From Bacillota bacterium (lineage in GTDB: Bacteria > Bacillota > Sulfobacillia > Sulfobacillales > Sulfobacillaceae): a stretch of 64,000 nucleotides of DNA. The stretch is from positions 1 through 64,000 of the forward strand of contig JAJYHT010000021.1 in the NCBI GenBank assembly GCA_021784595.1, given 5' to 3'. Every line of letters begins with the position of its first letter. The stretch's first letter is position 1. The position numbers were made by a program, and so were the translations under genes. Below are positions 52,436 to 62,202 of this stretch, one piece after another. The notes under the pieces were generated by a model. The model made no database searches and was not told the DNA's origin. It saw only the letters and a list, made by a program, of their open reading frames with translations.

Positions 52436-53260
52436 CTACGCATACCAAGCCGACATGTCATAGTGGGAAAATGCGCTAGCAAAGGCAATAGCGTACGCGA
52501 TGGCCATGGAAAGGCCCATGATTAAACCGCCCAGTTGTTGGTCGGACAGTGCAGTAAGGCCGAACAAGTGAGGCATTTTCTCGTAGACGGCGTAAAAAGG
52601 CGATGTGGTGTCAATAACATATATGGTGGGAGGCATCATCAGATCAAAATTTAAAAACCAATACATCATTTGTGCTTCGAAATTTAAGGGGCCATCGATA
52701 GAATGAGCCAATAATTGGCGAGCGCCTAAAGACTTCTCGGAATTTATTCTTGCATCTCTGGGCGTGTAAATCGGCCACCACAAAAAGAATGCACTGACCA
52801 TAATCAGTAAGGTCCCCAATACATAGGGAGCGTTGTTGCGAAGCGTCCAGTCTAGAAGCACCGGGTATTGCCATGCCCACATGATCAAGTTGAAGGTAAC
52901 GAGGGCAAGAAGTGGATGCCCTGCGGTGCGCACGATGCGTCGGAATGTCGCACGTTGGTACAAGGACCCTAGCAATCCGTCAGGCAATCCACGATATACT
53001 AGAGGGGGCACCACTAAAGTAAGAAATGCCACTTGCACCATATGAGCAGAGTATAAGTCCTGCGTGGCCCAAATATTCAAGGGGCTCCCGACGCATAAAA
53101 AGTAGATCGCCAATGCCATAGCAAAGCGAGTCCGTTGCGCAGTGGTCGGAGCCTGGGACGAGGGGACCCAACGCGTGCGCAGAGAGCCAGTCAGCGTGTG
53201 GTATAGGATGCCAAGTAGCAGAACTAGTCCGAAGACCACGGGATTCCAAGACAAAAGCAT
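52436..53260 (-). CDS. ctaG: Cytochrome c oxidase assembly protein CtaG (caa3 type)
   Basis: A 274-residue integral membrane protein with seven helices: WNPVVFGLVLLLGILYHTLTG, the HMVQVAFLTLVVPPLV segment with conserved His, and HSIDGPLNFEAQMMYWFLNFDLMMPP. The caa3_CtaG family is needed for correct assembly of copper-containing oxidases. It is at the edge of the oxidase locus but is transcribed away from it. Confidence 0.9.
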   Translation of the reverse strand: MLLSWNPVVFGLVLLLGILYHTLTGSLRTRWVPSSQAPTTAQRTRFAMALAIYFLCVGSPLNIWATQDLYSAHMVQVAFLTLVVPPLVYRGLPDGLLGSLYQRATFRRIVRTAGHPLLALVTFNLIMWAWQYPVLLDWTLRNNAPYVLGTLLIMVSAFFLWWPIYTPRDARINSEKSLGARQLLAHSIDGPLNFEAQMMYWFLNFDLMMPPTIYVIDTTSPFYAVYEKMPHLFGLTALSDQQLGGLIMGLSMAIAYAIAFASAFSHYDMSAWYA

Positions 53261-53339: not shown

Positions 53340-53538
53340 GCATGGCAGGAAAACAACGAAATGGATTTGAATCTCAGTGCGGACGAATTGTCATAGAAAT
53401 CACAAAGTCTTAAAGGACATTTTCTTATAGTCTTGTGTCAATGGCCCAAATCTCATATCCTTAAATTGTCTGGAACAAATCATCACGGAAACCATTGGCC
53501 GAGTTGACAAACGATCCTGGATGGGGGGAGCGATAATT

Positions 53539-53637
53539 GTGGAATTTGTAAAAACGGTGTTTTTAACAGCGGTACCGTTGTTTGTGGTGGCGGTTGTGGT
53601 GTTGTCTATCACATTGTTGCATGATTACCAGTATTAA
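53539..53637 (+). CDS. Tiny single-helix membrane protein (32 residues)
   Basis: A GTG-started frame, too short for most gene callers. VEFVKTVFLTAVPLFVVAVV is one hydrophobic helix, ending with the polar tail HDYQY. A GGGGGGAG ribosome site lies 7-8 bases upstream. This size and topology recall the tiny accessory subunits of oxidases (CydX and CcoQ style), and it lies in the terminal oxidase locus. That role is inference; no family is recognised. Confidence 0.55.
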   Translation: MEFVKTVFLTAVPLFVVAVVVLSITLLHDYQY

Positions 53638-53653: not shown

Positions 53654-53758
53654 TTAGTCATCTCGCGCATGACCATTTCGCCGCTCGCCGACAGCAACAA
53701 TGACCACCAGGATGAGGGCGACAACAAATATTAAACCTGCTACCATAGTGAAATTCAT
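53654..53758 (-). CDS. Tiny single-helix membrane protein (34 residues)
   Basis: A minus-strand ATG frame with AGAAAGGTCG about 8 bases upstream. MNFTMVAGLIFVVALILVVI is a single membrane helix followed by the charged tail GERRNGHARDD. It converges with the other tiny membrane gene, 16 bases stop to stop. No family recognised. The good ribosome site and clean helix-plus-charged-tail layout support a real gene. Confidence 0.55.
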   Translation of the reverse strand: MNFTMVAGLIFVVALILVVIVAVGERRNGHARDD

Positions 53759-53860: not shown

Positions 53861-54100
53861 GTGAAATTTTTGGCATATTTAGTATGGACATACCTAGGCT
53901 TGCTCGCTTCGTCCGTTAGTGGCGCGTTCTTGTTCTTTGGCTTTGCCCTATTTGGCCCTCGACGACGCCGCACCAGTTCGTCAACGGTAGAGTTTAGGCG
54001 GCCCACGATACCGTTTAGTTGGGTGACGGTACATGTCTTGCTGGCAACTGTGACATTGGGACTTTTTACAATGACGATTATCCGCGGACATTTTCGATAG
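53861..54100 (+). CDS. Small two-helix membrane protein of the oxidase locus
   Basis: 79 residues from GTG 53861 (ribosome site AAGAAAG, modest). The first helix is YLVWTYLGLLASSVSGAFLF, then an arginine-rich loop GPRRRRTSSS and a second helix WVTVHVLLATVTLGLFTMTI with a His near its start. It resembles its neighbour in having two helices, a basic cytoplasmic loop and a His at the start of helix 2, so the two may be distant paralogues. Function unknown; an oxidase accessory or heme/copper role is possible. Confidence 0.6.
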   Translation: MKFLAYLVWTYLGLLASSVSGAFLFFGFALFGPRRRRTSSSTVEFRRPTIPFSWVTVHVLLATVTLGLFTMTIIRGHFR

Positions 54101-54121
54101 GCCAAAAAAGGGGGCACGAAA

Positions 54122-54448
54122 ATGGCCGACTGGATATCGGAAGCTTACGGCACCTATGTGGTGACCTATTTGACGGGTTTAACATTTTACCTTAGGTTCG
54201 ATGCAAAACGCCGCCCGTTGCGACGCAGGCTCTTAGGAATGCATTTGATTATGGCCATTATGACTTTTATTTCATTGACTTCGGCGATGGCGATATATGC
54301 ATTTCCAAGCCCTCCTGTAGTCCACCAAACGTCTAAACATTCGACGATGTGGTACTATGTTTTGCAGCATCGAGCGGAACTAAAACGCAATCAATCTAAA
54401 AACCAACTTACCCAGGTGCTGCCCGGAGCAAAGCCTGGTTCGCAATAG
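54122..54448 (+). CDS. Small two-helix membrane protein, possible paralogue of the previous gene
   Basis: 108 residues. Helix 1 is short (YVVTYLTGLTFYLRF), then the basic loop DAKRRPLRRRLLG and helix 2 HLIMAIMTFISLTSAMAIYAF starting with His, then a soluble tail of about 40 residues. AAAAAAGGGGG precedes the ATG. It lies 21 bases after the previous gene and 15 before the next, so the three are co-transcribed. No family recognised. Confidence 0.62.
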   Translation: MADWISEAYGTYVVTYLTGLTFYLRFDAKRRPLRRRLLGMHLIMAIMTFISLTSAMAIYAFPSPPVVHQTSKHSTMWYYVLQHRAELKRNQSKNQLTQVLPGAKPGSQ

Positions 54449-54463
54449 AGGAGGGGAAACCGG

Positions 54464-55240
54464 ATGAGTGAGCAATGGAGACACTCTTGGGAAAGTGTTG
54501 GAGAATATTGGCCGCTTGGGTGGAAGAGATGGCGCAATCCTTTGTTGCTTGGCATTATTTTGTTTGTTTTGTGGTCTTCGGTGAATCCTTCGGTGGTTCC
54601 CTTCGTTTTGTTTCGCATCCAGCCCTTCAACGACCCCATTATTGGGTTGACCTTTCATCACAATCTGGCCGCACTAGTCACGGCAGTACCTAAACTAGCA
54701 ATCAGTGCCGTGGTTATTGGAGGACTTTCGGTGGTTATCAGCCGGCGACTGAAGTCGCCACTATCGCCTTCGATGTTGTCTAAGGGATTCGCTGCGGCGG
54801 GAGTTCTTGCGATATTTTCTTTAGGGGTTTTAGCAATTGCGGGGGTTCCCATTGGACAGGGCAACGGGAATTTCAAACTAACCCTGAGCATTGATGGGAT
54901 TTCCATGTTATTTGTATTGCCAGTTTTTTTCTGGTGGTGGCCTTGGCAACTGAGTCATTCGAAAGAATCTTTTGGGTCTTATCTCAAGTGGCTGGTCCAT
55001 GCGCCCATTGAGAAGGTTTTTGTTGCGTTGGCTTGGTTGATTGGGTTGGCGGTCGCTGAGATGCTGGCGGCTGCCGTAGCTTGGACGACGTTTTCCCCTT
55101 TTCTGGGTATGGTCAGCTTGGCAGCGGTTGCTATTGTGGATGGAGCAGTGACGTGGAAGGCTGCCGCCTTTTATGCAGGGCGAAGCCACGCCAAGCCTCT
55201 TTCGCCAGTCCCAAGCATATCGGTTCCTCCTCTGATGTAA
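54464..55240 (+). CDS. Uncharacterised polytopic membrane protein of the oxidase locus
   Basis: 258 residues with about six helices. A short soluble N-terminus rich in Trp (WRHSWESVGEYWPLGWKRWR) comes first. A cluster FFWWWPWQLS lies in the middle. GAGGAGGGG precedes the ATG. No heme or copper motif is evident and I recognise no family. Placed between ctaG and the cupredoxin/oxidase genes and followed by a 378-base gap, it ends the first sub-operon of the locus. Confidence 0.65.
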   Translation: MSEQWRHSWESVGEYWPLGWKRWRNPLLLGIILFVLWSSVNPSVVPFVLFRIQPFNDPIIGLTFHHNLAALVTAVPKLAISAVVIGGLSVVISRRLKSPLSPSMLSKGFAAAGVLAIFSLGVLAIAGVPIGQGNGNFKLTLSIDGISMLFVLPVFFWWWPWQLSHSKESFGSYLKWLVHAPIEKVFVALAWLIGLAVAEMLAAAVAWTTFSPFLGMVSLAAVAIVDGAVTWKAAAFYAGRSHAKPLSPVPSISVPPLM

Positions 55241-56330: not shown

Positions 56331-57152
56331 ATGGGAAGCCTGTTGGTGTTTGGGTTGCTGTGGGTAGTATTTTCCCTGTTAGGGGAATGGGGAGCCACGG
56401 CTTGGATAAATTCTGCGCCGGATGGCACTGGACCGTATTTTGGGACTGCTTCAAATCTCGGTGTGGTGGGGGCTCATGCCTTCGACTTCCTGGTGTGGGT
56501 GGCAGTGCCGATCTTTGTATTTGTGGTCTTAATGATCATCTATGCAATGATTCGATTTCGTTCTAAGCCCGGTGAGAAAATGACTGATGCACCGCGCCAG
56601 ACACGCAACAATAAGGTGTTTGTAGGATCGTGGATCCTAATCAGCATTGTGATTAATCTATTAGTCTGGTTGCATCCTAACGCCAGTGGTCTTGAGCAGG
56701 TATTTGCGGCACAGCTTCCAAAAAACAATCCGAACCCGCTAGTGGTGGATGTTACTGCACGGCAATGGGAATGGATTTTTAGTTACCCGCAGTACAACAT
56801 TACACAGTCGTTGAATGCCAGTGGACAGGATACGTTGTATTTGCCTGTGAATCGTCCCGTTAAATTCGTGTTGCGGTCATATGACCCTTTTCACACTTAT
56901 GATACCGCGATTGATGTCATTCACGGGTTTTGGATTCCGGCGTTTGGTGTCAAGTATGACGTGATTCCGGGCGAAACTCGAATCTTATACCTGACGCCTA
57001 CCGAACTCATTTCAACAGAACAAAATCCCATGGCAAGGGTGCAATGCTCTGAGGTGTGCGGGCCTGGCCATCCTTACATGGAAGCAAACTTGCACGTGGT
57101 GACAGGCTCGGCATTTGCGGCGTGGGCCAAACAGCAGGCTTCGGGTTCTTAA
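56331..57152 (+). CDS. Cytochrome c oxidase subunit II
   Basis: 273 residues with two N-terminal helices and a periplasmic CuA domain. The CuA site is intact: His in VIHGFWIPAF, and CSEVCGPGHPYM (two Cys, bridging Glu, His, Met). No C-terminal heme c motif, so it is not caa3. The aromatic patch ARQWEWIFSYPQY for electron entry is present. The C-terminus is short. With no cytochrome c gene nearby, the cupredoxin upstream is a natural donor. Confidence 0.95.
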   Translation: MGSLLVFGLLWVVFSLLGEWGATAWINSAPDGTGPYFGTASNLGVVGAHAFDFLVWVAVPIFVFVVLMIIYAMIRFRSKPGEKMTDAPRQTRNNKVFVGSWILISIVINLLVWLHPNASGLEQVFAAQLPKNNPNPLVVDVTARQWEWIFSYPQYNITQSLNASGQDTLYLPVNRPVKFVLRSYDPFHTYDTAIDVIHGFWIPAFGVKYDVIPGETRILYLTPTELISTEQNPMARVQCSEVCGPGHPYMEANLHVVTGSAFAAWAKQQASGS

Positions 57153-57220: not shown

Positions 57221-59098
57221 ATGGCACAACCCTTACCCAAAGGCGGAGCGGCACCTGTGCCAAAACGGGTTGCACCGTGGCCCCCGGTATTGCGAGCTTT
57301 CTTATGGGCTGGTATCGGGTTCGTGGTGCTGGCAGCAATGGCTGCATGGCTGGACCCCAGTCCGGTCAGTCCATATCTAACCGCTGTGGGTTCCGTGACA
57401 GGATGGTTTGGTGCATTGATTGGATGGCTTCTTGGCATCGGAGGTTACGACTACGTTGTTCGTCCGATGATGGGGTATCCAACACCTCGCATCCGCACAT
57501 CCGGATGGCGTCGTTATTTTGAATATGCAGTCGATCACAAAGTGATTGGTTTACAATACCTAGGAGCTTCAACAGGAACTTTCTTGATTGCCGGACTGAT
57601 TGCCATGGCAATGCGGTTTCAGTTAATGAATTACCGTCCCACCCTATTTCATTATCCTCAAGATTACCTAAATGCGGTGGGTATACACGGAACACTGATG
57701 ATGTTCACTGTGGCCACGGTTGCCATGGTGGGAGGCTTGGGCAACTATTTTGTGCCCCTGATGATAGGCGCGCGTGAAACCATGTTTCCCAAGGCTTCAG
57801 GGCTTTCAATCTGGCTGGTGCCAGTTGGAGTGCTTACCGTGTCAATGTCTCCATTGCTGGGTCAATGGTCGACGGGGTGGAGAGGCTATGAGCCGTTGGC
57901 GGCATCCGATGGAAGTGGCTTGCTCTATTACTACCTCGGAGTGTTTGCATTGACCACGTCGTCACTGATAGTGGCGATAAATCTGACGTCCACGATTCTG
58001 TTCAAACGTACCAAAGGGATGACCTGGAACCGTTTACCGTTGTTTGCGTGGGGCATTTTGACCGTCTCGCTGCTGAACATTATTTGGCTGCCGGAAATCC
58101 AGACCACCTTTATCTTAGGGATGATGGACAAGGTGATGCCGCTTAACTTGTTCAATGTCTTCGGCCAACCATTGGGATATGAGTATCTGTTTTGGCTGTT
58201 CGGCCATCCTGAAGTGTACATTGTGGTTATCCCTGCTCTGGCGATTTGGAACGAAATTATCCCGGTGATGGGGCGCAAGTCGTTGTTTGCCCGGCCCATT
58301 GCGGTCTTGGGTTTGGTTTTTGTGATGCTGCTGTCCGGCATGGTGTGGGCCCATCACATGTTCACCATGATGAGATTTAGCGAGATGCTCCCGTTCTCGT
58401 TTTTCACTGAGATGATCTCAATTCCCACCGGATTTGCCTACCTGGCGGTCATAGGGACGTTGTGGAATTCGCGTTTGCGACTAACCACGCCGACATTGTT
58501 AGTGCTGATGAGCATGTTCAACTTCCTGATCGGAGGGTTGACAGGACTGTTCTTAGCGGACGTGCCGGCAAACTTGCAACTTCACAACACATTCTTTGTT
58601 GTGGGACACTTCCATTTCACCATTATCGGCGGAATGGTTTTCAGCTGGATGGCGGCCATGTACTACTGGTTGCCTAAATTCTCCGGACGCACATACAGTG
58701 AATTTTGGGGAAAACTCGGAGCGATTTGGGTGTTTATCGCATTCAATGCGACATTCCTGAACTTTTTCATTCTCGGTCTGCATGGCATGAACCGATGGGT
58801 CAGCGCCTACCCCAAGTACTTGCAACCGGAGAACTTCTGGACCTCGATTGCAGCCTATCTCTTGGGAGCTGGGTTCGGTATCAACATTATTCACATTGTG
58901 TGGGCGTGGGTCAAAGGGCCTAAGGTCAAGGAAAATCCTTGGGGAGCGAAGACTCTGGAGTGGCAGACGACTTCCCCGCCACCAGCCAAGAACTTCGAGG
59001 AATTGCCAGTGGTGGTGGGAAGTTTTTACACCTATGGCAAAGATGTTCCTGATCCCGTGATGTTTCCGGTAGCGCAAGAACGGGCTCCCGGGAGCTAG
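57221..59098 (+). CDS. Cytochrome c oxidase subunit I with altered proton-channel residues
   Basis: 625 residues. Heme a and a3/CuB ligands are intact: HGTLMMF, FGHPEVYIVVIP (with the His-Tyr pair), WAHHMFT and VVGHFHFTIIGG. Helix VIII reads SIPTGFAYLAV where A-type oxidases have PTGIK, so the K-channel lysine is replaced by Ala. In the D-channel mouth, GARETMFPKASGLS replaces the usual GAPDMAFPRMNNLS, changing Asp to Glu and losing the Asn pair. The glutamate in GHPEVY remains. An N-terminal extension of about 90 residues with two extra helices precedes the core. GGGAGGA lies before the ATG. Confidence 0.93.
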   Translation: MAQPLPKGGAAPVPKRVAPWPPVLRAFLWAGIGFVVLAAMAAWLDPSPVSPYLTAVGSVTGWFGALIGWLLGIGGYDYVVRPMMGYPTPRIRTSGWRRYFEYAVDHKVIGLQYLGASTGTFLIAGLIAMAMRFQLMNYRPTLFHYPQDYLNAVGIHGTLMMFTVATVAMVGGLGNYFVPLMIGARETMFPKASGLSIWLVPVGVLTVSMSPLLGQWSTGWRGYEPLAASDGSGLLYYYLGVFALTTSSLIVAINLTSTILFKRTKGMTWNRLPLFAWGILTVSLLNIIWLPEIQTTFILGMMDKVMPLNLFNVFGQPLGYEYLFWLFGHPEVYIVVIPALAIWNEIIPVMGRKSLFARPIAVLGLVFVMLLSGMVWAHHMFTMMRFSEMLPFSFFTEMISIPTGFAYLAVIGTLWNSRLRLTTPTLLVLMSMFNFLIGGLTGLFLADVPANLQLHNTFFVVGHFHFTIIGGMVFSWMAAMYYWLPKFSGRTYSEFWGKLGAIWVFIAFNATFLNFFILGLHGMNRWVSAYPKYLQPENFWTSIAAYLLGAGFGINIIHIVWAWVKGPKVKENPWGAKTLEWQTTSPPPAKNFEELPVVVGSFYTYGKDVPDPVMFPVAQERAPGS

Positions 59099-59137: not shown

Positions 59138-59704
59138 GTGGTGGTAAAGGGCGGCTCGCTTAATGAGGAGAACGGCGTCGGGATTAAGCATTACCGCGCA
59201 GGATTTATCCTCTTTCTCATCAGCCAGGCTGTGGTGTTTATGGTGTTGATTGCGGTGCGCTTTCTTATCGCTGGTGGTAAGGTTGGTCCATATAGCCAGC
59301 CGCTAGGCGTAGTGATTACAGTAGTTATGTTGCTTAGCGCGTGGCTTGCAAAAAGCTCACGCAACGCTGTGCAGGCGGGAAATAGCGAGGCAGTTCAGAA
59401 GAGGTTGGCATCGGCGATTTGGCTAGGGGTGTTGGCATTTGCTCTGGTTCTCATTATGTGGACCATGGTCAGAAACGATGGTTACAGTGTTACCATGCCC
59501 TCCCTGGAAGTTTTTTGGGTGGCTACCGGATTCTGGTTGGTCTATGTATTGCTAGGACTCTTCGTTCTATTTGCTGCACGTTCCCGTGGCAGGCTAGTCG
59601 GTTATACGCCTGACAACGATTGGGACTTGGAAGCAAGTTCGCATTTCTGGACCTTCGTCACGGTTGGGTGGATAGCGCTGTGGATCGCGTTCTTTTTTCT
59701 ATAG
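59138..59704 (+). CDS. Cytochrome c oxidase subunit III
   Basis: 188 residues with five helices and the COX3 ending DLEASSHFWTFVTVGWIALW. Length and helix count match the five-helix subunit III found in many bacterial oxidases. The start is GTG 59138 (a second GTG follows at once), with AAAGGAG about 11 bases upstream. It supports proton uptake and stability of subunit I. Confidence 0.88.
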   Translation: MVVKGGSLNEENGVGIKHYRAGFILFLISQAVVFMVLIAVRFLIAGGKVGPYSQPLGVVITVVMLLSAWLAKSSRNAVQAGNSEAVQKRLASAIWLGVLAFALVLIMWTMVRNDGYSVTMPSLEVFWVATGFWLVYVLLGLFVLFAARSRGRLVGYTPDNDWDLEASSHFWTFVTVGWIALWIAFFFL

Positions 59705-59752: not shown

Positions 59753-59974
59753 ATGAATGGTGGGTTTTTTCCGACACTGCCTTACGTTATTCCGCATTCA
59801 CCGGGAATCGCCCATTGGTTTGATATTTTCTGGTGGGTATTTCAACTTGTGGTAATGACCACACTGGTCTTGCTTTTGCGGCATTGGGCAGTAAGTTTCG
59901 ACCGGGAACGGGATTCTGATGTGAAACAAACGTCTGTGACAGCCCCCCCGCAAAATCCGGGAATACCCGGCTAG
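59753..59974 (+). CDS. Small one-helix protein, possible oxidase subunit IV
   Basis: 73 residues: an N-terminal segment with several His and Pro, a helix (FDIFWWVFQLVVMTTLVLLL) and a polar tail with Pro/Gly. AGGAGGAAAGG precedes the ATG. It lies between coxIII and ctaB, where small subunit IV genes are usually found, but I see no sequence signature of that family. Confidence 0.62.
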   Translation: MNGGFFPTLPYVIPHSPGIAHWFDIFWWVFQLVVMTTLVLLLRHWAVSFDRERDSDVKQTSVTAPPQNPGIPG

Positions 59975-59987
59975 GAGGAGGATCTTC

Positions 59988-60908
59988 ATGCAGAGCGCGC
60001 GTGCAATGCGAACAGAGGGAGTGGACATGCTGGTCAGTGTCCCAAATAGGTCATGGGCCGATATGTTTGGGGATTATTTGGCACTCACCAAACCGGGCAT
60101 TGTCCTCTGGCTCATGATTACGGCACTGTGCGCGATGGCGGTCGCGGCCAAGGGCATACCGCCGCTGGTTACAGCGGGGGCGACTCTAGTCGGACTCGCG
60201 TTGTCGGCTGGTGGTGCGCATGCTGTGAACATGTGGTATGACCGGGATATTGATCAGGTGATGGATCGAACCAAGACCCGCCCCGTGGCTGCGGGGCGGG
60301 TGTCGGCCCGCAATGCGTTAATGTTTGGCGTCATTGCAGGGCTGGTGGCATTTGGTTGGCTAGTCCTCATGGTCAATTGGCTTACGGCATGGACTTGTCT
60401 TTCAGGGTATTTGACGTATGTCTTTGTCTACACCGTATGGCTAAAGCGTCGTTCTCCGCAAAACATTGTCATTGGGGGGGCGGCTGGGGCCGTGCCTCCC
60501 ATGGTAGGTTGGGCGGCAGTGACCGATCACTTGGGACTAACTGCCTGGCTTATGTTTTCGATCATTTTTTTATGGACTCCGCCTCACTTTTGGGCTCTGG
60601 CATTATATAAGCAGGATGACTACCGCCGAGCCAATATTCCGATGATGCCGATTATCCGGGGAAAGCGTGCTACGGCCATTCAAACCGTTATCTATGCGGG
60701 ATTGGTTATTCTGGCCTCGCTGACATTATGGCGTGTTGCGCACTTGAGCTGGGCGTATTTTGGGGTGGCTGTAGTGGCCGGGGCGTGGTTTATGGTGTAC
60801 CAAGTTCGTGTGTTAGTGGACAACGACCCTAAAACCCGTTGGGCCAAAAAAGCTTTTGGATTTTCTCTCATCTATATAGCCTTATTGTTTGTCGCAATGG
60901 CTATCTAA
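59988..60908 (+). CDS. ctaB: Protoheme IX farnesyltransferase (heme O synthase)
   Basis: A 306-residue UbiA-family prenyltransferase. It has nine helices and the prenyl-PP/Mg motifs NMWYDRDIDQVMDRTKTRP and FLWTPPHFWALALYKQDDYRRA. It makes heme O from protoheme for the oxidase; the partner heme A synthase (ctaA) is not in the window. The start is ATG 59988 with AGGAGGAGGA; an ATG at 60018 is an alternative. It is the last gene of the oxidase operon. Confidence 0.95.
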   Translation: MQSARAMRTEGVDMLVSVPNRSWADMFGDYLALTKPGIVLWLMITALCAMAVAAKGIPPLVTAGATLVGLALSAGGAHAVNMWYDRDIDQVMDRTKTRPVAAGRVSARNALMFGVIAGLVAFGWLVLMVNWLTAWTCLSGYLTYVFVYTVWLKRRSPQNIVIGGAAGAVPPMVGWAAVTDHLGLTAWLMFSIIFLWTPPHFWALALYKQDDYRRANIPMMPIIRGKRATAIQTVIYAGLVILASLTLWRVAHLSWAYFGVAVVAGAWFMVYQVRVLVDNDPKTRWAKKAFGFSLIYIALLFVAMAI

Positions 60909-60961: not shown

Positions 60962-61139
60962 ATGTAAATACAGTGTATCTGAAAAAAACGATTTTGGGTA
61001 GAAATCTTCGTGTTGTGCAGGGCAACGGATGGCTTGCAGAAAAATCCCCCAACAGCAGACTTCTTACAGACCGGACAAGAGAACTAGAGTAAAGAAGGTT
61101 GTAACCGCTTGCGACAAATCTACAATTATGTCTTAGAAT

Positions 61140-61150
61140 ATGGTATAATC
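61140..61150 (+). promoter_or_regulatory. -10 box for the IS607 tnpA
   Basis: GGTATAATCC near 61142-61150 gives a perfect -10 about 20 bases before the tnpA ATG, so the leader is very short. No good -35 at the expected distance. Confidence 0.4.
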
Positions 61151-61168
61151 CTTCTTGGTGATAGTTCA

Positions 61169-61819
61169 ATGGACGAACAGTTTGTCAGTATTGGCAAAAC
61201 CGCGAAGATGCTCGGAATGAGTATTGAAGGGCTCCGGAAATGGGAACGCGAGGGACGGTTGATTCCCTTGCGCACGGTGACGAATCATCGCCGCTATCGG
61301 GTGGCGGACTTACACGCCCTGATGCACGAGGCTGTACAGAATCCCGCGCTGGACACACGGTGTATCCTCTATGCCCGGGTTTCCACGACAAAACAACAAG
61401 AGGCCGGAAATTTGGATCGCCAATTGGGCCGGCTGACGGCATTCGCGGCGGAGCAACACTGGACGGTCGTCGCCGCGCTGACCGATGTCGCCAGCGGGTT
61501 GAACGAACAGCGCCGGGGCTTGCATCAACTGCTTGATCTGGCCCGAGACCACCAGGCAAGCCTGGTGGTTGTCGAATATCGCGACCGATTAGCACGGTTC
61601 GGCTTGGGCTATCTCCAAACCTTTCTGCACGCCTTCGGCGTGCGTGTGGTCGTGATGGAGAGTCCAGTGAAGGACGATCAACAGGAACTTGTGGAGGACT
61701 TGATCGCCATCACCACGTCGTTTTCGGCCCGCATGTATGGCAAACGTGGCGGGAAAAAGATCGGCGCGACCGTGCGCCAAGCCATAGCGACCTTATCTCA
61801 AGACGGCGTCCCAGAATGA
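61169..61819 (+). CDS. tnpA: IS607 family serine recombinase (TnpA)
   Basis: 216 residues. An N-terminal MerR-like helix-turn-helix (KTAKMLGMSIEGLRKWEREG) precedes a resolvase-type catalytic domain: CILYARVSTTKQQEAGNLDRQ with the catalytic Ser, then VEYRDRLARFGLGYL. The tail KIGATVRQAIA is typical. IS607 enzymes move the element by serine-recombinase chemistry with little target specificity. The ATG at 61169 is chosen; 20 upstream codons in frame overlap the promoter. The gene appears intact. Its ATGA overlap with tnpB is typical of the family. Confidence 0.92.
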   Translation: MDEQFVSIGKTAKMLGMSIEGLRKWEREGRLIPLRTVTNHRRYRVADLHALMHEAVQNPALDTRCILYARVSTTKQQEAGNLDRQLGRLTAFAAEQHWTVVAALTDVASGLNEQRRGLHQLLDLARDHQASLVVVEYRDRLARFGLGYLQTFLHAFGVRVVVMESPVKDDQQELVEDLIAITTSFSARMYGKRGGKKIGATVRQAIATLSQDGVPE

Positions 61820-62202
61820 AAACCACGATTTTTGGAGTCTTGCTTGATGTCACGCCCGAACAAGATACGATCCTTCGTCGTCTCACGCGCAAATATGGGT
61901 TTATGCTCCGGTTTGCGTTCAATCGTTTACTCCAGGGCCTGTCCAACATTGGGGCCTTGGAGCGCCATCTAGCCAGTGACACGGAGTTGCCGCTGCGGTA
62001 CGCGAAAGATGCCCTGCAGGAAGCGCAAGACCTCATCCGTACCCGACATCAAGCGATGAAAGAGGGTCGTGATCTCTGGACGCAGCGTGTCAAAAAGACG
62101 CGAGAACGGTTGACCGCACTCCGGGCATCCCCGCATCCGAATGCCCGCCGTATGGCGGGACAAGAACGTAAGCTCGCGCAGGGCCTGACCATTGGGCGTT
62201 AG
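61816..62202 (+). pseudogene. TnpB (IS607 accessory nuclease), truncated to N-terminal part
   Basis: 128 residues resembling the start of TnpB: KTTIFGVLLDVTPEQDTILRRL, then helical sequence with FNRLLQGL and coiled Lys/Arg-rich stretches. Full TnpB is about 380-420 residues with a RuvC domain (three Asp/Glu) and zinc ribbon. All of that is missing and the frame stops after QGLTIGR. Downstream sequence belongs to a minus-strand gene, so a deletion or secondary insertion removed the rest along with the right end and its guide RNA. It cannot be an active nuclease. Confidence 0.85.

Follow-up and report, generated by a model that had tools for sequence, protein, structure and literature searches.

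The window analyzed here is a stretch of 64,000 nucleotides (contig C75 of genome G000, which holds 3.79 Mb in 101 contigs), and the genes under study lie within its oxidase locus. On the forward strand, the gene of an AcoP-like cupredoxin (P0004, 55619 to 56260) is followed by those of oxidase subunit II with its CuA motif (56331 to 57152), subunit I (57221 to 59098), subunit III (59138 to 59704), a small fourth protein of the oxidase operon that has the same place in relatives (59753 to 59974), and a ctaB-like heme O synthase of the UbiA family (59988 to 60908). Upstream, ctaG (Caa3_CtaG, PF09678), which encodes an oxidase assembly factor, runs divergently on the reverse strand (52436 to 53260). 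The three open reading frames m1, m2, and m3 described in an earlier note were all found where it had put them, on the forward strand between the divergent ctaG and the P0004-II-I-III-IV-ctaB series.

P0004 was compared with AcoP (7z3b) and gave an E value of 1.3e-18, with both parts of the fold aligned and the copper ligands H, C, H, and M kept in order; the two differ at the N-terminus, where a TAT-like signal is present in P0004. The "acidophile cytochrome c oxidase partner," AcoP, is described with ligand residues H, C, H, and M, and the oxidase clusters of two Sulfobacillus species are reported to contain homologues of it (PMC4059628). Because P0004 is AcoP-like, the locus in the window is an AcoP-type oxidase locus, and the oxidase itself is of an already known kind. 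Positions 61109 to 62202 seem, to judge by eye from the translated sequence, to encode an IS607-type resolvase and, after it, a TnpB-like fragment.

The first of the three genes, m1 (53861 to 54100), starts with GTG and encodes a protein of 79 amino acids with two hydrophobic stretches, the first hairpin of a two-repeat protein, in which Gly21, Phe25, and His58 are invariant. The second, m2 (54122 to 54448, 108 amino acids; Gly19 and His41 invariant), begins 21 bases past the m1 stop in the same reading frame and encodes a hairpin as in m1, followed by a polar C-terminal tail that the structure model shows as helical. A simple hydropathy scan made only helix 2 of m2 clear, while both m2 helices are seen in the structure model. 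The layout said to be shared by the two proteins was borne out, namely two helices, a loop rich in Arg and Lys, and one His near the start of helix 2. When m1 and m2 were joined by reading through the m1 stop, the AlphaFold model reached a moderate confidence (pLDDT 70.8, pTM 0.50).

Homologous halves in split and fused genes

As single sequences, m1 and m2 do not match each other in BLASTP. Their profiles do, with a probability of 96.9% and an E value of 2e-10 when 16 m1 and 22 m2 sequences were used, and with a probability of 97.4%, an E value of 1.3e-11, and a score of 52 when the hairpin cores of half 1 and half 2 (39 rows each) were compared. In controls for the latter comparison, 60 column-permuted profiles scored at most 13.7 and a reversed profile 9.4, and the control membrane families (DUF420, CtaA, oxidase subunits I–IV, CtaG, CtaB, and m3) reached probabilities of at most 16% against the halves. 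Furthermore, several m1 sequences were matched by the m2 profile in sequence-to-profile searches (e.g., L102 at E = 2.8e-8). The paralogy that the earlier note had raised as a possibility, and that it would have given up had the two proteins proved unrelated by alignment, is therefore strongly supported. What it had missed is that m1 and m2 are the two homologous halves of one unit.

The two halves are always found together. In total, 39 copies of each half were counted, as 22 split pairs and 17 single fused genes encoding four helices. A second hairpin gene adjoins the split m2 gene in 22 of 22 cases, in the order m1-m2 in 11 loci and m2-m1 in the other 11. Twenty of these partners score well against the m1 profile (19 at E ≤ 1e-5 and L101 at 2e-4), 16 of them having themselves been used to build that profile; the remaining two (L096 and L106) were assigned only by their place, a weak score, and the motif. 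Seven pairs from genus g9 (L095, L097, L099, L100, L102, L103, and L104) show a four-base overlap between the two genes. Genome G000 itself holds a second pair, of the order m2-m1, on contig C44 (L101:5735-6242), beside genes for LUD-domain and AurF-like proteins.

Among the fused copies, two (L094 and L098) belong to the window's family, ten to the Alicyclobacillus family (8 of 41 genomes), and five more to the same class. The search of the class matched 8 of 398 genomes, of which G453 and G493 had already been counted and G515 was too weak (E = 9.9e-5 over 38 positions); G515 and a weak second match in G493 (E = 0.006) were left out of all counts. When 398 genomes of the phylum were scanned with the m2 profile, only the window's own family was matched, in three genomes, and the distant relatives of m1-m2 came from a scan of named genomes and from the Alicyclobacillus searches. 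An m2 match is also held by Sulfobacillus harzensis DSM 109850; this species, a carrier of the m1-m2-m3 set, oxidizes ferrous iron (PMC8489842). A role specific to this lineage, as suggested earlier, thus describes only part of the set: m1-m2 occurs in Alicyclobacillus and relatives as well, and only m3 was confined to the window's family among the genomes searched. In L186–L188, a divergent gene for a MerR-family regulator, confirmed by Pfam for L186 only, adjoins the fused gene on its upstream side, and in L186 and L187 a protein of about 150 amino acids lies beyond the MerR gene.

The reading frame shared by m1 and m2 in the window recurs in 9 of the 11 pairs looked at, which are related, so that no probability is given. 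Programmed read-through of the m1 stop was considered and rejected, as the stops differ among pairs and three of the gaps hold a second stop. The shared frame is read as a trace of gene splitting or as chance, not as recoding.

Conserved residues and the candidate ligand

Conservation is concentrated on a few residues that recur in both halves. Across the 39 copies, Gly, Phe, and His are each present in 39/39 in half 1, along with Pro (36/39) and Thr (37/39); in half 2, the corresponding counts are 39/39 for Gly, His, and Phe, and 38/39 for Thr. Within each half, helix 1 contains the Gly and helix 2 the His, with a median spacing of 22–23 residues, which would place both at a similar depth and should let them face each other across the hairpin. 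The number of Arg and Lys residues between Gly and His has a median of five in half 2 and two in half 1; a long basic loop occurs in half 1 only among split Sulfobacillus forms with m1 ahead of m2, and elsewhere the loop goes down to one basic residue. By the positive-inside rule, the basic turn would be cytoplasmic and the N and C termini would lie outside.

In membrane cytochromes such as bc1 cytochrome b, b561, and NarI, a bis-His heme is held by His residues on helices 2 and 4, with Gly residues opposite them on helices 1 and 3. The joined halves would reproduce this arrangement, with two helices each bearing a conserved His, at what appears to be equal depth, and a conserved Gly that, judged by the spacing, would face each of these His residues. 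By analogy, a single heme b would be the most likely ligand. The earlier suggestion that the His residues may contact heme or copper has thus gained in likelihood from the invariance of the His and from an invariant Gly at matching depth.

The arrangement may be pictured as two hairpin modules, m1 and m2, packed as a four-helix bundle. The invariant His residues would belong to helices 2 and 4 and the invariant Gly residues to helices 1 and 3, all in the inner half of the membrane. A porphyrin could then lie between the two His residues, the Gly residues of the neighboring helices making room for it and the propionates meeting the loops rich in Arg and Lys. Membrane b-type cytochromes differ from m1-m2 in having two sites rather than one; m1-m2, in addition, has no Pfam match and may be split over two genes. 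It is conceivable, if somewhat doubtful, that m1-m2 represents a minimal new kind of membrane cytochrome, in which the heme site is formed only when homologous hairpins, often separate polypeptides, pair. If so, the duplicated-hairpin state that is taken as the origin of four-helix heme proteins would survive in m1-m2, which would have been enlisted by acidophilic Bacillota, some of them iron oxidizers, to serve their AcoP oxidases. A duplication origin is disputed for heme A synthase (PMC8239418; PMC12808453), and the split and fused forms of m1-m2 bear on that origin in four-helix heme proteins generally.

The main alternative to heme is copper. The His pair and the outer tail, which bears His as well, might move or hold copper for CuB or CuA. 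Every one of the 39 copies has one or more His residues in the tail after half 2, placed in 38 of them in a pattern of an aromatic residue or Leu, two to six residues, and His. Several neighbors are also factors of the copper centers: ctaG in the window, L171, and L174, Sco in L171, L120, and L190, and CtaM in L190; CtaM has been proposed to export copper for the oxidases in B. subtilis (PMC13344008). Against these points, neither half has an invariant Met or Cys in the alignments of the 39 copies, and m1-m2 and CtaM are not detectably related in sequence. A Gly kept invariantly across from each His is, moreover, more typical of porphyrin packing. Copper is therefore seen as the less probable ligand, one that nevertheless deserves serious consideration, and heme b is preferred.

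The earlier note had recognized no family, which is right for Pfam and NCBIfam, as m1, m2, and m3 match none at the cut-offs of these collections. Two known families share features with m1-m2. CtaM (DUF420) likewise has four helices, basic cytoplasmic loops, and His residues near helix starts, and is linked to A-type oxidases; m1-m2 differs in that PF04238 matches neither m1 nor m2 nor three fused forms, and in that genomes with m1-m2 keep a separate DUF420 gene. A CtaM-like origin was rejected, the hhalign probability being at most 16% with a DUF420 set of 11 sequences from 12 loci. Half 1 had its highest control probability, at that value, with DUF420, yet the unrelated ctaB reached 12%, so the DUF420 score was given no weight. 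In heme A synthase (CtaA/Cox15), each half is a four-helix bundle of two hairpins whose second helices each bear a His, and an internal duplication is seen as well. In m1-m2, by contrast, the charge rule would place the His toward the inner rather than the outer side, and separate CtaA genes are present. A CtaA-like origin was rejected too, with no match to PF02628 and an hhalign probability below 1% (12 CtaA sequences). The E-x-x-H-R motif in helix 2, a mark of heme A synthase (PMC12808453), is absent from the m1-m2 alignments.

Comparisons of structure bear on a further possibility, that m1-m2 is a small structural subunit attached to the oxidase and works without a cofactor. Both proteins are small and, in the window, linked to the operon, and the best fold matches of the joined model include COX III (8hcr_G, Z 12.0), with 17 of 50 match rows counted as subunit III. 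However, talin and designed bundles tie with it at Z 11.9, the Pfam model of COX III (PF00510) gave no match, the profile probability to COX III is below 1%, the operon already has a canonical subunit III gene, and many copies of m1-m2 are far from any oxidase gene. The role of a bare structural subunit thus appears quite improbable. The fold search with the joined model returned no match with E below 0.001, a search of solved structures with the m2 profile gave nothing below E = 0.79, and the fold matches of the model, a mix of COX III, talin, and designed bundles, appear uninformative. In open papers on Sulfobacillus oxidases, AcoP, and CtaM/DUF420, no description of the m1-m2 family was found, a family without a name being invisible to such a search.

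Association with AcoP-type oxidases

Because of its place between ctaG and the oxidase operon, the set had been linked to the oxidase, in electron donation or assembly. The distribution of m1-m2 was compared with that of the window's type of oxidase among 34 genomes of the family, with coxB of this type called at E < 1e-50 and m1-m2 at E < 1e-20 with the m2 profile. Eighteen of the 21 genomes with this coxB also have m1-m2, against 0 of the 13 without it, three of the latter being only 59–63% complete (P = 6e-7, Fisher's exact test, with no correction for shared descent). The three genomes with coxB and no m1-m2 are G011, G019, and G024, in the last of which m3 is cut by a contig end. These counts concern coxB, as the presence of AcoP was checked in the fetched loci only and not in all 21 coxB genomes.

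Gene order was then considered for the 39 copies. Thirteen of them lie in an AcoP-type oxidase locus (the window, L082–L087, L092, L094, L098, L120, L171, and L174), with other genes intervening in L085, no cupredoxin gene mapped in L094, and the cupredoxin region beyond the fetched stretch in L174. The order in G490 (L171) is nearly that of the window: ctaG, m1-m2, a SoxE protein, AcoP, subunits II, I, III, and IV, and ctaB. Variants of this synteny are found in Alicyclobacillus sp. SP_1 (L120, with the fused gene at L120:9755-10222) and G485 (L174). In G793, the fused gene is directly followed by DUF420/CtaM and then SCO1 (the three together at L190:6378-8604, reverse strand), with no oxidase subunit gene in the stretch.

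Several other proteins were seen in these loci. Proteins with a sulfocyanin (SoxE) domain adjoin the AcoP oxidase genes at L120:12726-13307 and L171:5685-6347, and a protein of about 210 amino acids appears alike by eye in the same two loci (L120:10306-10944 and L171:7237-7860). The Alicyclobacillus-type loci also hold a protein of about 320 amino acids (L171:323-1309, L120:17756-18730, and L174:7623-8579), which sits between subunit IV and ctaB or beside ctaG and whose L171 and L174 copies match nothing in Pfam.

Within the fetched stretches, neither an oxidase gene nor one for oxidase assembly accompanies the remaining 25 of the 39 copies, two of these stretches (L088 and L089) being cut by contig ends. 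In the Alicyclobacillaceae, G471, G472, G473, G482, and G493 are genomes that carry m1-m2 with no oxidase close by. They adjoin genes for dihydroxyacetone kinase, LUD proteins, transporters, or unrelated genes, and in G008 the m1-m2-m3 set is about 115 kb from the oxidase operon. The occurrence of orthologues away from oxidase genes, which the earlier note had named as evidence against its proposal, is thus partly borne out. Under such circumstances, one could regard m1-m2 as a membrane protein with a general redox or stress function in acidophilic Bacillota, which only sometimes comes to lie by an oxidase. The co-occurrence within the family argues against this, as does the recurrent placement by an AcoP oxidase or by CtaM and Sco in distant groups, and we consider such independence from the oxidase unlikely. 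The link to the oxidase accordingly holds in part, on co-occurrence and on synteny in two distant groups, while most copies are elsewhere in the genome.

Taken together, we favor the reading of m1-m2 as a membrane protein that binds heme b, or a metal, and serves AcoP-type oxidases, most likely in their assembly, with a probability of roughly 45%. There it would take part, alongside CtaG, Sco, and CtaM, in the handling of heme or copper. Assembly is preferred over electron donation because the oxidase-related neighbors in L190 are assembly genes only; a carrier of electrons to AcoP or CuA would be the less likely role. In the family, all m1-m2 genomes except G001 and G015 have a DUF420/CtaM gene, and all except G001 have CtaA. 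As CtaM and CtaA are already present, neither of their known jobs is vacant, and m1-m2 would act beside CtaM, which has an essential but unassigned role in Bacillus according to PMC9145763. The same source expects further bacterial oxidase assembly proteins to be found, and the path of electrons from iron to the oxidase in Sulfobacillus is described as poorly understood (PMC6803676). For that path, or for the assembly of the oxidase, m1-m2 offers a defined candidate with a testable His pair.

m3 and two miniproteins upstream of m1

The third gene, m3 (54464 to 55240), encodes a protein of 258 amino acids with six hydrophobic segments and 14 Trp residues, in agreement with its earlier description as a six-helix, Trp-rich protein. 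It was found only in the window's family, in 11 of the 61 genomes searched, and directly follows m1-m2 in all ten loci where the upstream side is present. A Trp, a Y-W pair, and a Q-P-x-N motif are invariant. The top three matches of its model (pLDDT 69.6, pTM 0.65) are CysZ of three species (Z 7.7, 6.7, and 6.4; next match 5.7), and the likeness is limited by a Z under 8, an rmsd of 5–6 Å, and the lack of a Pfam match. A search of solved structures with the m3 profile gave nothing below E = 3.4. A weakly CysZ-like fold may thus be taken as a lead only.

Two unannotated genes for single-helix miniproteins, both missed in the earlier note, lie in the gap between ctaG and m1. The one on the forward strand, mini+ (53539 to 53637), encodes 32 amino acids from a GTG start, while an ATG at 53521 would give 38. 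The one on the reverse strand, mini- (53654 to 53758), encodes 34 amino acids with the conserved C-terminal end G-E-R-R/K-x-G-H-A-R-D-D. Near L088, where the m1-m2 pair lacks a recognized m3, neither miniprotein was found. Both are at the same place upstream of m1 in all nine other m1-m2-m3 loci in which the stretch is present. In tblastn searches, mini- was found at E < 1e-7 in 9/9 of these loci and mini+ at E below 1e-4 in seven; mini+ is weak in L084 and L085, where it was assigned by placement. The miniproteins are present also in G008, where m1-m2-m3 is away from the oxidase, and they therefore belong with the m1-m2-m3 set. Across the four closest loci, pN/pS is 0.31 for mini+ and 0.17 for mini-, and these conserved miniproteins are parts of the locus that ordinary gene calling missed.
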